Shown here: positions 8,245 to 60,799 of the stretch, one piece after another | Layout: each line of letters starts with the position of its first letter | Position numbering within the stretch: position 1 is the first letter of the stretch | Made by a program: the position numbers and the translations under genes | Notes under the pieces: generated by a model | Told to the model about the DNA's origin: nothing | The model's input: the letters and a program-made list of their open reading frames with translations, nothing else | Database searches by the model: none | Source: Sporosarcina sp. FSL W8-0480 | Lineage (GTDB): Bacteria > Bacillota > Bacilli > Bacillales_A > Planococcaceae | Length of the DNA: 64,000 nt | Direction of reading: 5' to 3' | NCBI RefSeq assembly: GCF_037963765.1 | Contig: NZ_CP150166.1 | Span: forward strand, 2,673,501-2,737,500

Positions 8245-9386
8245 TGGTCATTCCCCCCTTTCACTTCTTGCAAGACCTCATTGAAAATCTTTTCTGTTTC
8301 ATCGTCAGGTTCGTTTTCATTCATTTGAGTGTAAAAATATCGAAACAGGGTCATATCATCTGGTTTTTCCTGGATTGCAGAATCTTGCCGTTCAAGTGTT
8401 GCGGCAGTCCGACTCACTTTCCTTTCAATATGCATGGCATTCGGATAAATCGACTTCACTTTTTCCATCGGAAATAAGACAGGTGTGGCATCATGCAATT
8501 TCACAAAAACGTAGTCATCACTTGGCGGATGGGTGAGAATTTCCTCCATCTCCCCTTCGATGGTACGCATATCATGTTTTGGGACAAGTAGCCTCTTTTG
8601 GACATCGATGTTGCCCTCTCCATCCATTTCCACAATGTAAAAACCTTTTTTATGATGTTCTTCAGATATTGAATATTTCATCGGTGATCCCGAATATCGT
8701 ATCGATTCATTCAATACATGATGTGCCTGGTGCAGATGGCCCAAAGCCGTGTAATGGAACGGTTTGAAAAGTTGTGCAGACACATACTCCGCGCCACCTA
8801 TTGCCAAAGGGCGTTCTGAATCACTTGTATTCTCCTCTTCTTCACCGTGCGGAGTGACAAAAGCATGTCCTACAAAAACATGTCGGGCATCTTCTTTAAA
8901 TTCGATTTCCTGAATTACACTTTTCATAGCACTATTAAAATCTATTATGTTTTCATCCTCATAAACTTGTCTACAAATGGAAGGGTCAGCATATGGGACA
9001 AGGTGAAAATGAACCTCTCCGTATGAATCATTGAATACGATCGGTTCCACTTTATTTTTTAAACGGCCTTCAATATAGTAGCCATTTCTTCTCATCAATT
9101 CACTGCCAAAGTCTAATCGGCTTGGACTATCGTGGTTCCCAGCCACTGCAATTACAGGTGTTTTCAAATCGACAACAATTTCATTTAGCACTTCATCTAA
9201 CAATGATACTGCTTCAGTTGGCGGCACTGCCCGATCATACAAATCCCCTGCAATCACTATCACATCTGGTTTTTCTTCTTTAATGGCGTCGATGAATTGC
9301 CGAAGCACATGTCGTTGCCCCTCCGTCATGTATACTCCTTTAACTAATTTACCTAAATGCCAATCCGCCGTATGGAAAAACTTCAA
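8241..9386 (-). CDS. sbcD: Exonuclease subunit SbcD (Mre11-type nuclease)
   Basis: A 381-aa calcineurin-like metallophosphoesterase. Metal-binding motifs appear in order: HTADWHLGK (residues 5-13), GDLYDRAVPP (about 48), GNHDSPSRL (about 84) and GHLHQAHH (about 220). It supplies the Mn2+-dependent nuclease site of SbcCD, with SbcC as ATPase clamp. It is the first gene of the sbcDC operon, overlapping sbcC by 4 bp. The start is ATG 9386. The 353-bp gap upstream is shared with the divergent manganese transporter operon. Confidence 0.95.
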   Translation of the reverse strand: MKFFHTADWHLGKLVKGVYMTEGQRHVLRQFIDAIKEEKPDVIVIAGDLYDRAVPPTEAVSLLDEVLNEIVVDLKTPVIAVAGNHDSPSRLDFGSELMRRNGYYIEGRLKNKVEPIVFNDSYGEVHFHLVPYADPSICRQVYEDENIIDFNSAMKSVIQEIEFKEDARHVFVGHAFVTPHGEEEENTSDSERPLAIGGAEYVSAQLFKPFHYTALGHLHQAHHVLNESIRYSGSPMKYSISEEHHKKGFYIVEMDGEGNIDVQKRLLVPKHDMRTIEGEMEEILTHPPSDDYVFVKLHDATPVLFPMEKVKSIYPNAMHIERKVSRTAATLERQDSAIQEKPDDMTLFRYFYTQMNENEPDDETEKIFNEVLQEVKGGNDQ

Positions 9387-11538: not shown

Positions 11539-12483
11539 ATGAAGAAATATCTTGCGTGGATAGGTTTATCTTTAGTATCCATCTTTTCACTTGCGGCGTG
11601 TGGGGCGGATGACAATGAAGATACAGCAAACAGTGGTGATGGGCCTTTGAAGGTTGTGACGTCGTTTACGATTATTGCGGATATGGCGAGGGAGATTGGT
11701 GGGGAGTTTGTGGAGGTGCATAATCTTGTACCGACTGGAACGGATCCGCATGAGTATGAGCCATTGCCGAATGATATTAAAGCTGCTACTGATGCAGATG
11801 TGCTTTTTTATAATGGCCTGAATCTTGAGGGAGGAAAAAAAGGGTGGTTCTTTAAAATGATTGATACCGTCAATCAAAAAGAAGAGAATGTGTTCAGTTT
11901 GACCGAGCGCGTAGAACCAATGTATTTGACCGATAAAGATGGACGTGAAGAGGAAATCAATCCCCATGCATTCATTGATCCCGCTGTCGGTGTGAAAATG
12001 GCTGAGGATATGCGGGATATACTTGTGAAAAGACACCCTTCCAAAAGTGAGGAAATTCAGAAACGTGGAGATGCATATGTGCAACGATTGAAGGAAATCG
12101 ACAAAGAGTATGAAGAGAGGATCAAAGATATTCCAGAGAAGAATCGTATATTGGTCACAAGCGAGCGGGCTTTCCAATACATGGCCTCCCATTATGGATT
12201 GATGGAAGCGTATATTTGGGAAATCGATACGGAAGAGAATGGCTCGCCTACTCAAATAAAAAACTTAGTTGACTTTATCAAGTCGCATGACGTGTCAGTA
12301 CTGTTCATGGAATCCAACGTTGACCCCCGTCCGATGGAAACCGTCGCCAACGAAACGGGTGTGCGAATTGCCGAGAAGAAAATCTACTCAGATGAAATCG
12401 GAAAACCTAACGATGAAGTGAATACGTATATTAAGTATTTGAAATACAACATCAATCTGATACATGAGGAACTTAGCAAATAA
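11539..12483 (+). CDS. mntA: Manganese ABC transporter, substrate-binding lipoprotein
   Basis: A 314-aa cluster A-I (PsaA/TroA/MntA) solute-binding protein. A lipoprotein signal ends in the lipobox LAAC (Cys about 22), so it is anchored on the outer face of the membrane. Predicted metal ligands are His in DPHEYEP, His in NPHAFIDP, Glu in SERAF and Asp in YSDEIG. This His2-Glu-Asp set, and the absence of a His-rich loop, favour Mn2+ over Zn2+. The ribosome site is AGGGGG upstream of ATG 11539. The gene is separated from the permease by a dispersed repeat, so its expression may differ from that of the first two genes. A strong terminator follows. Confidence 0.9.
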   Translation: MKKYLAWIGLSLVSIFSLAACGADDNEDTANSGDGPLKVVTSFTIIADMAREIGGEFVEVHNLVPTGTDPHEYEPLPNDIKAATDADVLFYNGLNLEGGKKGWFFKMIDTVNQKEENVFSLTERVEPMYLTDKDGREEEINPHAFIDPAVGVKMAEDMRDILVKRHPSKSEEIQKRGDAYVQRLKEIDKEYEERIKDIPEKNRILVTSERAFQYMASHYGLMEAYIWEIDTEENGSPTQIKNLVDFIKSHDVSVLFMESNVDPRPMETVANETGVRIAEKKIYSDEIGKPNDEVNTYIKYLKYNINLIHEELSK

Positions 12484-25317: not shown

Positions 25318-25452
25318 TCATTAAAATCATACATTTACGCATAAACTATTAAATTCACGCATAAGTAGCCTTAATCACGCATAAACTACCCGAAAAACTC
25401 ATAATTGCACTTAAAAGCGCATAAAAGCTGCCAAAGACGCATAAATTTTTTG
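25318..25452 (+). repeat. 20-bp-period array A, core CGCATAA/CTCATAA
   Basis: Core hexamers (GCATAA or TCATAA) start at 25339, 25359, 25379, 25399, 25419 and 25439, exactly 20 bp apart; a weaker unit begins about 21 bp earlier at 25318. Between cores about 13 bp vary. It fills the gap between the convergent hypothetical and Nudix genes. The same core family occurs inverted at 60660-60799. Confidence 0.85.
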
Positions 25453-29675: not shown

Positions 29676-30851
29676 ATGATTTCAAATCGATTAAAAAACA
29701 TGCCGCCTCACTTTTTCTCCGGATTGGTAAAGAAAGTGGAGGCTGCAAAGCAATCTGGTATGGACATTATCAATCTTGGAAGAGGTAATCCCGACCAACC
29801 AACACCCGATCACATTATTAAAGCCTTGCAGCAAGCCGCGGAACGTCCCGAAAATCATGGGTACTCTCCATTCAATGGTATTCCAGAATTGCGAAAGGCA
29901 GTTGCAGATTTTTATAAGCGGGAATACGGCGTGGACGTGAACCCTGATACGGAGGTTGCTATTTTAGGTGGTTCAAAAATAGGGTTAGTGGAAATTCCCC
30001 TTGCGATGATGAATGAAGGCGACCTACTCTTATTACCGGATCCGGGTTACCCCGATTATTTGTCCGGTGTTAGTCTTGCTAACATTGAGTATGATACGAT
30101 GCCGCTTCTTAAGGAAAATGGGTTCATGCCAGACTTCTCTTCTATTGCGGATGAGTCGAAGCAAAAAGCTAAGATCATGTATTTGAACTATCCGAACAAC
30201 CCTACAAGTGCTGTCGCAACCATTCCTTTTTTTGAAGAAGCTATTTCCTTTGCGAGAGAGAATGGAATATTTATTGTGCATGATATGGCGTATGGAGGGA
30301 TTGGATTTGACGGAGTTAAGCCGATAAGTTACCTTCAAGCGGATGGAGCTAAGGAAATCGGAATAGAAATGTACACCTTATCGAAAACGTATAATATGGC
30401 TGGATGGAGGGTCGCCTTCGCAGTAGGGAATTCAAAGATGATTGAAGCCATAAGCAGATTGCAAAGTCAGCTGTTCATCGGAATGTTCCCTGGAATCCAA
30501 CACGCGGCAATTGCAGCTTTAGGTGCAGATCAATCATGTGTGAGAGAACTGACGGCGCTATATGAGAATCGTAGAAATGTCTTGATAAGGGAATGTCAGC
30601 GTATCGGTTGGAACGTGGAAGCGCCGAAAGCCTCTTTCTTCGCCTGGTTACCTGTTCCTGAAGGCTATACGAGTGAATCATTTTCGGATATCCTTCTTCA
30701 ACAAGCAGGGGTGGTCGTTGCTGCAGGCAATGGCTTTGGTAAATATGGAGAGGGCTTTGTCCGTGTCGGATTATTAGAGAGTGAGGAACGGATTGCAGAA
30801 GCAGTCGGGAGAATTGAAGCTTTGGGGATATTTACAGCGAGCGAAGCGTGA
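29676..30851 (+). CDS. mtnE: PLP-dependent class I/II aminotransferase, MtnE-like
   Basis: A 391-aa fold-type I aminotransferase. Family blocks are INLGRGNPDQPTP (about residue 30), NYPNNPTSAVAT (about 170), and the PLP lysine in YTLSKTYNMAGWRVAFAVGN (about Lys 233), followed by GNGFGKYGEGFVRVGL near the end. The sequence closely resembles B. subtilis MtnE (YkrV), which transaminates ketomethylthiobutyrate to methionine in methionine salvage. No other salvage gene is nearby, so a broader aromatic or methionine aminotransferase role is possible. GGGG precedes ATG 29676. The gene ends in a hairpin right before repeat array B. Confidence 0.75.
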   Translation: MISNRLKNMPPHFFSGLVKKVEAAKQSGMDIINLGRGNPDQPTPDHIIKALQQAAERPENHGYSPFNGIPELRKAVADFYKREYGVDVNPDTEVAILGGSKIGLVEIPLAMMNEGDLLLLPDPGYPDYLSGVSLANIEYDTMPLLKENGFMPDFSSIADESKQKAKIMYLNYPNNPTSAVATIPFFEEAISFARENGIFIVHDMAYGGIGFDGVKPISYLQADGAKEIGIEMYTLSKTYNMAGWRVAFAVGNSKMIEAISRLQSQLFIGMFPGIQHAAIAALGADQSCVRELTALYENRRNVLIRECQRIGWNVEAPKASFFAWLPVPEGYTSESFSDILLQQAGVVVAAGNGFGKYGEGFVRVGLLESEERIAEAVGRIEALGIFTASEA

Positions 30852-30854
30852 CTT

Positions 30855-30888
30855 ACAAAAAGGCTGCCAACGATGGCGGCCTTTTTGT
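30855..30888 (+). terminator. Intrinsic terminator of the aminotransferase gene
   Basis: ACAAAAAGGCTGCCA (30855-30869) pairs with TGGCGGCCTTTTTGT (30874-30888) with one G-T pair and a T run. It is followed 21 bp later by array B. Confidence 0.85.
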
Positions 30889-30908
30889 ATGCTCATGGGG
30901 ATGCTTTG

Positions 30909-31408
30909 TCTTGGGCGCGAAACGCATTTCTTGAGCGCTTGGCACAATTCTTGAGCGCATAATGAGAATCTTGAGCGCGGATACATTTTCTTGAGCGCGA
31001 AATGCTAATCTTGAGCGAAAAACGCTATTCTTGAGCGCTTGGCACAATTCTTGAGCGCATAATGAGAATCTTGAGCGCGGATACATTTTCTTGAGCGCGA
31101 AATTCAATTCTTGAGCGAAAAGTATAATTCTTGAGCGTATGGCACAATTCTTGAGCACATAATGAGAATCTTGAGCGCGGATACATTTTCTTGGGCGCAT
31201 AATGAGAATCTTGAGCGCGAATACATTTTCTTGAGCGCGAAATGCTATTCTTGAGCACAAAACGCTATTCTTGAGCGCTTGGCACAATTCTTGAGCGCAA
31301 AATGCTAATCTTGAGCGAAAAGTACAATTCTTGAGCGCGAATACACTTTCTTGAGCGCGGATACACTTTCTTGAGCGCAAAACACAATTCTTGAGCGCAG
31401 CATATGCC
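30909..31408 (-). repeat. 20-bp-period array B, 25 units, core TCTTGAGCGC
   Basis: Twenty-five contiguous 20-bp units start at 30909 and every 20 bp to 31389. Each is a near-constant TCTTGAGCGC (variants TCTTGGGCGC, TCTTGAGCGA, TCTTGAGCAC, TCTTGAGCGT) plus a variable 10-mer. Variable halves recur in order: TTGGCACAAT, ATAATGAGAA, GGATACATTT open units 2-4 and 7-9, and nearly 12-14, a 100-bp higher-order period. The array fills the 563-bp gap between the aminotransferase terminator and the convergent GNAT stop at 31415. Confidence 0.95.
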
Positions 31409-31414
31409 TCCCCC

Positions 31415-32263
31415 TTATTTCTGAAATCCAATATGAATCGAATCAGCAATATGCTTATATCCAATCTCCTTATAAATCTTATTAGAGGTAGGATTCATCA
31501 TATCCGTATATAGAACACAGAAATTATACTCCTTTAATAGCTCCATGGAACCGCATGCCACCATCGTCCGAGCGTAGCCTTTCCTGCGCTCCTCTTTCGG
31601 TGTGAAAACTAATGAGACCGTGACACCATTCCTTGTCGGTCTTGATTTCTTCATCATTGAAACAACTTTTCCTTCATTTTCCCACAAGAATACCTCCTGC
31701 GATTCAATGAATTGCTTGACTATATCATTAACACGTTCAATTGGAGTCCGATTCAAATTCGCATCATCTTCAAACTTCGAATACCAGCTTACAACCAATG
31801 AATGATCGTCCATTGATGCATACCGCCAACTGCCCGGACTCATTTCAATTGTTTCATCAACCTGATCCAATCGATACAGCCCCTGATCCATTAAAAGTTT
31901 TTGCTGTTCCCCTGTGTATGCCGTCCATTTTTCAGCAAAAGCTGTCGCCCATTGCTTCAAACTAATAACCGATGTGACAGTGACCGCAGTCTCGTTAAGT
32001 TCCTGGATTATGAAATCGATCACTTCATCAATTTTACTTTCATCCACAATGACAAGGTTTACAGGATGTGGAGGAGTCATTTGCAGTAGCGCAAGCACCT
32101 CATCCCCTTCCATAATTGCAGCCATGAAAGGATTATCGTACTTCCCCGCCTTAATTGCCTGCAAAACGCCATAAAACAAACTAAAAACATCCTCTTGTTT
32201 TTCGACTACCGGTTCCGCAACCACTGCAAATCGCTTTGCATCATCAAATCGAATAAATTCCAT
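31415..32263 (-). CDS. GNAT-family N-acetyltransferase, two-domain
   Basis: A 282-aa protein. The C-terminal half is a typical GNAT domain with the acetyl-CoA loop VFTPKEERRKGYARTMVACG (about residues 215-234, motif A RRKGYA). The N-terminal half (about 1-140) is a second, degenerate GNAT-like domain without a clear CoA loop. The substrate is unknown. ATG 32263 is preceded by GGGGGAT. The stop codon is only 7 bp from repeat array B, leaving no room for a terminator, so transcripts may enter the array. Confidence 0.8.
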   Translation of the reverse strand: MEFIRFDDAKRFAVVAEPVVEKQEDVFSLFYGVLQAIKAGKYDNPFMAAIMEGDEVLALLQMTPPHPVNLVIVDESKIDEVIDFIIQELNETAVTVTSVISLKQWATAFAEKWTAYTGEQQKLLMDQGLYRLDQVDETIEMSPGSWRYASMDDHSLVVSWYSKFEDDANLNRTPIERVNDIVKQFIESQEVFLWENEGKVVSMMKKSRPTRNGVTVSLVFTPKEERRKGYARTMVACGSMELLKEYNFCVLYTDMMNPTSNKIYKEIGYKHIADSIHIGFQK

Positions 32264-50205: not shown

Positions 50206-50335
50206 GATATATCGAATTTTCTTCGTTCTTATCTTTCAAGATTGACATCTTGTTGGAGGTAGCACCTTCCTGCTAATGCAGAGGTTGCTGAAGCGTCATC
50301 GGGCCAAATCCCTCAGCTTCTCTTAATAAGAATTA
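50174..50335 (-). promoter_or_regulatory. SAM-I (S-box) riboswitch of metA
   Basis: Minus strand: TTCTTATTAAGAGAAGCTGA, then GGGATTTGGCCCGATGACGC, then CAGCAACC, AGGTGCTACCTCC and GATAAGAA. These are the ordered S-box blocks: P1 (TTCTTAT about 50332-50326 with ATAAGAA about 50231-50225), the kink-turn GATGA, the P3/P4 pseudoknot loops. A terminator hairpin (50181-50205) follows. SAM binding should favour termination before metA. Confidence 0.92.
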
Positions 50336-59613: not shown

Positions 59614-59701
59614 ATGTTACCTCCCCCTTAATCAGATTATACTACAAATACTATTTATTCATATTCTAATATTCATATATCTTTGTAATTAGGAGGAGAA
59701 T

Positions 59702-60058
59702 GAGAACTATTCCACGATAAACGAGAACTTTTTGGACATGAACGAGAACTTTAGGGCGGTAAAGGAGAACTCTTTGTACAAGAATGAGAACTCTACAGTG
59801 TTAAAGGAGAACTCTTTGTGCAGGAACGAGAACTCTACAGCGATAAACGAGAACTCTTTGTGCAGGAACGAGAACTCTACATCGTTAAAGGAGAACTCAT
59901 TGCTCAAGAACGAGAACTCTATAGCATTAAAGGAGAACTCTTTGCTCAATAACGAGAACTCTATAGCGTTAAACGAGAACTCTTTGTGCAGGAACGAGAA
60001 CTCTACAGCGTTAAAGGAGAACTCTTTGCTCAAGAGCGAGAACTCTACAAAAAAAACG
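59702..60058. repeat. 21-bp-period array C, 17 units, core GAGAACTC
   Basis: Seventeen contiguous 21-bp units start at 59702 and every 21 bp to 60038. Each begins GAGAACT (mostly GAGAACTCT). From unit 4 onward two unit types largely alternate, one with TTTGT-CA-GAA and one with TACAG-GTTAAA, giving a 42-bp double period. Because 21 is a multiple of 3, long frames stay open through it on both strands, but they are low-complexity and unsupported. It lies between the GNAT promoter and the downstream terminator of the Nudix gene. The rest of the 538-bp gap (59614-60151) holds only the GNAT upstream region and that terminator. Confidence 0.95.
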
Positions 60059-60625: not shown

Positions 60626-60659
60626 ACTCTCCCCCTTTTTACGAAGAACAAATTCATGT

Positions 60660-60799
60660 TTATGTGTAAATTTTATCGATTATGAGCTTTTGAAGCGGTT
60701 TATGCGTTTTTAGGCGGCTTTATGCGTACTTTTCTTCGTTTATGAGCTTTTCGCCGAAGTTATGCGTGATTTCGGCAGTTTATGCGTTTTTCGGTGATA
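60660..60799 (-). repeat. 20-bp-period array D, core CGCATAA/CTCATAA (inverted)
   Basis: On the + strand TTATG starts at 60660, 60680, 60700, 60720, 60740, 60760 and 60780, exactly 20 bp apart. On the minus strand these read CGCATAA or CTCATAA (CACATAA at 60660), the same two variants as array A. The TAA of the first unit is the stop codon of helD, so the array grows out of the gene end. Confidence 0.9.

Follow-up and report, generated by a model that had tools for sequence, protein, structure and literature searches.

Intergenic arrays of 20-bp units with a shared core, oriented with respect to replication, in Sporosarcina

The window analysed here is a stretch of 64,000 nucleotides (positions 2,673,501-2,737,500) of the 3.25-Mb contig of Sporosarcina sp. 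FSL W8-0480. Between two convergent genes, one for an aminotransferase and one for a GNAT-like acetyltransferase, it contains a tandem array of short units, which we assign to a repeat family called family A (Table 1). A symmetrical, terminator-like hairpin separates the aminotransferase gene from the array, and its RNA fold has a z-score of about -7.8 to -7.9. With an A run before its stem-loop and a T run after it, the hairpin should be able to end transcription arriving from both sides; the terminator scan missed it, probably because part of the T run is taken up in the pairing of the stem. The first-pass annotation had placed the array between a terminator and a convergent gene end, and both features are indeed found at these borders. 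The mRNA of the GNAT gene, transcribed from the minus strand, would cross the array before reaching the hairpin. An Rfam search of the window returned nothing at the array, only a SAM riboswitch elsewhere (50226-50332, minus strand; RF00162, 91.3 bits).

Table 1. Coordinates of the array, its flanking features and the related arrays in the window
Feature	Position	Strand	Remarks
Family-A array	30909-31408	+	TCTTGAGCGC-N10 repeated 25 times, unit length 20 bp throughout
Symmetrical terminator-like hairpin (A run, stem-loop, T run)	30854-30889	both	RNA folding energies of -25.3 and -23.4 kcal/mol on the two strands
Aminotransferase class I/II gene, left neighbour, lagging-strand	29676-30851	+	Pfam PF00155, E 7.5e-69
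GNAT-like acetyltransferase gene, right convergent neighbour, leading-strand	31415-32263	-	Pfam PF08445, E 3.1e-05
203-codon open frame spanning the array, judged spurious	30853-31464	-	no Pfam match
Related array, family B	59697-60049	+	AAMGAGAACTC core, 21-bp units
Related array, family C	60659-60787	+	TTTATGCGT core, 20-bp units
Short related array of family C, located in a different convergent gap	25337-25445	-	

The unit starts run from 30909 to 31389 in constant steps of 20 bp with zero phase slip, which bears out the initial description of 25 in-phase units. The TCTTGAGCGC core is exact in 17 of the 25 units and carries one mismatch in the other 8; its information content reaches 1.6-2.0 bits at nine of ten positions and 1.24 bits at the tenth, while each position of the variable half holds 0.2-1.1 bits. 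TTGGCACAAT, ATAATGAGAA and GGATACATTT are recurring variable halves, and TRF detected a 100-bp period (4.3 copies, 81% matches), so that the ordered recurrence of these halves and the duplication of 100-bp blocks, both noted in the first pass, are upheld. Among 24 variable halves 16 are distinct, and they are related by drift and duplication. A chance origin of the array is excluded, since the exact core pair at array spacing has 303 occurrences in the genome (172 and 131 on the two strands), against none for its letter-reversed control.

The array is clearly not unique. It had been argued in advance that a single array, with no similar cores elsewhere, would make a conserved function unlikely; a pattern search of the same genome and of other Planococcaceae instead recovered the same core at no fewer than 22 loci in this genome. 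In 1.19 Mb of targeted stretches, 27 family-A segments were merged into 22 independent loci, as some loci are split by insertion sequences, degenerate units or contig ends; about 37% of the genome was read, and the locus count is therefore at least 22. The exact core is also present in the named relatives Sporosarcina luteola, S. highlanderae and S. thermotolerans. Within the family, the exact core pair was found in 6 of 261 genomes, and related cores were more widespread, with TTKRGCGC triplets in 28 and TGAGCGC triplets in 32. The reversed control gave zero matches in nearly all family genomes and larger counts in a few, which may reflect arrays of other words. In three genomes of another genus (G033, G034 and G057), the reversed control CGCGAGT has dozens of matches at the same spacing, and these look like an independent array family of that genus. 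Ten pattern matches lay on viral contigs.

The core and the variable half behave very differently across these loci. Core identity is 95.0% within and 94.2% between arrays, somewhat inflated because units were picked by a core match with at most two mismatches, while the identity of the variable half falls from 62.9% within to 39.8% between arrays. Such selection of units does not explain locus-specific spacers beside a common core. Because the core is about as well kept between loci as within them and the other half is specific to each locus, the core is constrained. The first-pass annotation had offered selection on the core or gene-conversion-like spread; the former is in line with these values, and the latter, as a process between loci, is not, since conversion would have copied the variable halves too. 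Within a locus, duplication is supported, and neither slippage alone nor conversion between loci would yield a common core with locus-specific spacers. Core words are almost confined to arrays (413 inside, and 3 outside against 2.0 expected). The core must be recognised by something, presumably a protein. Of 493 core-to-core steps, 456 measure 20 or 21 bp, and most of the remaining steps are multiples thereof. As 20-21 bp correspond to two turns of B-DNA, all cores would lie on about the same side of the DNA.

The arrays also have a direction relative to replication. The origin of this genome was placed near 455 kb by parS sites, on which the origins in all six genomes compared here rest. In every family-A array of the genome TCTTGAGCGC lies on the minus strand to the right of the origin and on the plus strand to the left, and across six Sporosarcina genomes GCGCTCA reads from origin to terminus in 64 of 64 array loci listed. 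Among the listed loci there is no exception in G191 (parS at 960 kb; 11 loci), G224 (0.50 Mb; 7), G226 (2.41 Mb; 2), G193 (1.76-1.85 Mb; at least 10) or G198 (2.75-2.88 Mb; at least 12). The family-A core likewise has a single orientation in all its arrays within 360 kb of G180 that are syntenic with the left arm. A relaxed core search returned one degenerate array of contrary orientation, at about 1.0117 Mb in G191; family J, which is related, has the opposite orientation at two loci of the own genome. Around the expected terminus of this genome (about 1.65-2.45 Mb) no exact-core family-A array was among the matches listed, so family A may be depleted there.

Part of this polarity follows from co-orientation with genes. 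In the tandem gaps of the own genome, all 17 cases have GCGCTCAAGA running in the direction of both flanking genes; the leading orientation is in any case that of 88% of tandem gaps. The probability of 64 of 64 would be 0.0003 if all loci lay in tandem gaps and merely followed the genes, and 1e-19 without a gene effect. In convergent gaps, where the genes give no direction, all seven own-genome arrays are polar (7/7, two-sided P 0.016). Polarity is lacking in most other families (C 12:12, H 4:4, E 5:3, B 11:6); the TTTACCACCGA family may show it, on few loci.

Family A is one of several array families built to a common unit length. TRF periods in the sampled genome are almost exclusively 20, 21, 40-42 and 60, and at least ten core families were distinguished, including AAMGAGAACTC, TTTATGCGT, GAATGGACC, TATCACAACGTAA, CCGCTCGTTTAT, TTTACCACCGA and TATCGATCATTTCCC. 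Of the sampled sequence, 2.35% consists of arrays, a share biased upward because family-A arrays guided the choice of the first stretches. Family H is a fixed element of five 21-bp units of TATCGATCATTTCCC, the central one usually the variant TATCGATCAATTGG, followed by a conserved hairpin, ATATATGGTCATTTTGTGACCTTTG; in this genome it occurs near 124844, 489934, 510909, 524540, 531130, 534729, 549666 and 1634026, and family L (TATCTATTGAATA) is built in the same way. Families B (GAGAACTC) and D (GAATGGACC) stand side by side in opposite orientations, about 20-70 bp apart (96063-96480, 98268-98565, 507551-508076 and 1592402-1593051). A Sporosarcina genome lacking family A (G218) carries long 21-bp arrays of other words, such as GGTAGTCGAGTTTGCCTAAAA, for instance on L159 at 1251-1683, 9113-9358 and 11747-12163. 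Insertions of about 1.5 kb with the same ends lie inside family A and K arrays (898567-900096, 2494108-2495637, 2496246-2497795 and 3108437-3109987); the one that was read encodes a transposase of the IS256/Mutator family (Pfam PF00872), and the flanks suggest 8-bp target duplications. Arrays may thus be tolerant or preferred insertion sites.

Unit number and even family identity change between species. The gap orthologous to that of the window holds about 9 units in G176, 11 in G178, 5 in G179 and a 1-kb array in G180; G171, the nearest relative, has two units and species further away have none, so that related species have from 0 to about 45 or more units of a slightly different core, numbers to be read with the caveat that assemblies may collapse repeats. 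Both ends of the own contig (1-250 and 3249357-3249597) lie inside a family-A array; this is therefore probably where the assembly was cut, with a possible collapse of unit numbers. In orthologous gaps one family can stand in the place of another: in G180, a TTTAGGCGCGG array corresponds to an own J array and TTATGCG arrays to own E arrays, and TTGAGCGC-type arrays in S. luteola, G176 and G178 correspond to own C, E and L arrays.

Among described elements, the nearest kind is the STAR element of Staphylococcus, the only relevant one found in the literature on 20/21-bp intergenic repeats in Bacillales. STAR elements are intergenic direct repeats of a short, conserved, GC-rich core, of unknown function, with spacers distinct at each locus, a variable unit number and a patchy distribution between species (PMC3532100). 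Their 14-bp core, T(G/A/T)TGTTG(G/T)GGCCC(C/A), alternates with spacers of about 40 bp (PMC3532100). Family A shares with them the intergenic location, the locus-distinct spacers and the variable unit number; it differs in having an unrelated core and spacers of 10 bp each, a phasing of two helical turns and a polarity with respect to replication. The words orientation, terminator and convergent are absent from that article, and STAR polarity is not discussed there (PMC3532100). The STAR motif, full or truncated, had 0 matches in the 1.19 Mb searched, and the arrays are not members of the STAR family.

Other known systems share single properties with family A. Like VNTRs and minisatellites, it has tandem units, block duplication and a variable unit number; unlike them, it has one core at many loci whose spacers differ, a fixed unit of 20-21 bp and a polarity. 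Iterons and plasmid centromere repeats are protein-binding direct repeats set in helical phase, but they sit at one origin or centromere, whereas family A occupies dozens of chromosomal loci. KOPS and SRS are not known to form tandem arrays, while the family-A core is confined to them and outside them is not polar (6 vs 10); the usual skew is shown by GAGAAGGG (24:8) and GGGAAGGG (40:7). KOPS and SRS, octamers that guide FtsK and SpoIIIE, are short words oriented from origin to terminus (PMC2680272, PMC5869595). This class was rejected for family A, whose core is at chance level and non-polar outside arrays. A plasmid or phage origin was likewise rejected, as BLAST of the array against plasmid or phage records gave no match.

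The reading we favour, with a probability of roughly 0.45, is that family A is a STAR-like dispersed intergenic repeat, in which a readable core (about TTGAGCGC, here TCTTGAGCGC) returns every two helical turns and is read by a trans-acting factor. It is supported by the many loci per genome, the preservation of the core across loci and species, the near confinement of core words to arrays, the 20-21-bp spacing, the origin-to-terminus reading of GCGCTCA, the placement of arrays in gaps that lack divergent promoters and the fast change of unit number between species. A sequence-specific factor acting in trans would bind the core on one face of the DNA, and its action would be coupled to the direction of replication, or to transcription running with replication. 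Changes in unit number would arise from slippage, with the conserved core as anchor and one to five units affected at a time. In the own-genome sample no expanded family of DNA-binding paralogues was seen, and no binding protein for the core was found. At least ten unrelated cores at a common unit length imply either many factors or a unit length that is set otherwise. The lack of polarity in most other families and the contrary orientation of the degenerate G191 array and of family J also speak against this reading, as does the inflation of core identity by the way units were picked.

A further step would be to suppose that the host benefits, rather than that the repeat only maintains itself. 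According to this explanation, which we regard as unlikely, the arrays are polar signals selected by the host, and a coated array would form a one-way element in each arm, for example a stop for read-through beside terminators, or a boundary for SMC, FtsK/SpoIIIE or the replisome. Polarity and two-turn phasing fit such a role, as does the position of arrays next to terminators. Array placement fits as well: in gaps of at least 60 bp, with genes called by a codon-usage heuristic of this analysis, arrays are present in 34 of 75 gaps between convergent genes, 58 of 344 between tandem and only 5 of 103 between divergent ones (P 2e-11). Orthologous gaps moreover tend to retain an array, the presence of one in one species predicting one in the other with odds ratios of 20 (G171) and 23 (G180), gap length being uncontrolled. 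However, gap length and the absence of promoters may account for the placement, many sister species showed no such arrays, either in the sampled sequence or in the pattern search, the gap of the window has just two units left in the nearest relative, and the core has no polarity outside arrays.

It is improbable, in our estimate, that the arrays are neutral minisatellites with no reader of the core, arising by slippage and drift in tolerant gaps and owing their orientation to strand-specific instability or gene direction. Block duplications and the fast change in copy number would be expected of them, and the predominance of leading orientation among tandem gaps supplies a direction in any case. 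A folding model, which expects the nascent lagging strand to be the one that folds more readily, fits 22 of 25 arrays in family A; in other families it fits only 31 of 69, and strand foldability as the cause of polarity was rejected. Neutral turnover also leaves unexplained the common core beside fully diverged spacers across loci, and the polarity of all seven convergent arrays, which lack a gene direction to follow.

Distinctly doubtful is a more general scheme, a polarity system of Sporosarcina chromosomes in which helically phased intergenic array families would be interchangeable and the GAGCGC family, oriented with the fork, would provide a one-way nucleoprotein boundary in each arm. Still harder to credit is an element acting in RNA, with the arrays functioning in transcripts as GCGCUCAAGA repeats of 3' regions. 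The co-direction of family A with its neighbours in all 17 own tandem gaps that hold it and the predicted crossing of the window's array by the GNAT transcript would suit it, but many arrays begin beyond the terminator of the co-directional gene, Rfam has no family at the array, the polarity extends to convergent gaps and one array of G180 lies in a divergent gap.

A protein-coding repeat or a CRISPR-like array can be dismissed: the spanning frame and the alternation of constant and variable parts are set against a 20-bp period, no Pfam match, stop codons depleted in both directions rather than one, a stop codon in every unit of TTATGAGCGC-type arrays, spacers that repeat and drift, and the absence of Cas1 from the genome (controls positive). 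The frame is open across the array because the minus-strand core holds no stop codon. A CRISPR array was also rejected on structure, given a 10-bp core instead of longer repeats and spacers that are not unique; the first-pass annotation, which had judged the array neither coding nor CRISPR-like, was right on both counts.

Tandem repeats in bacterial intergenic regions usually serve as typing markers or pass for junk. The family described here unites a conserved core, a two-turn spacing and an origin-to-terminus polarity in six species. With it, open questions about STAR-like repeats become testable: what reads the core, what determines the unit length and why orientation follows replication.
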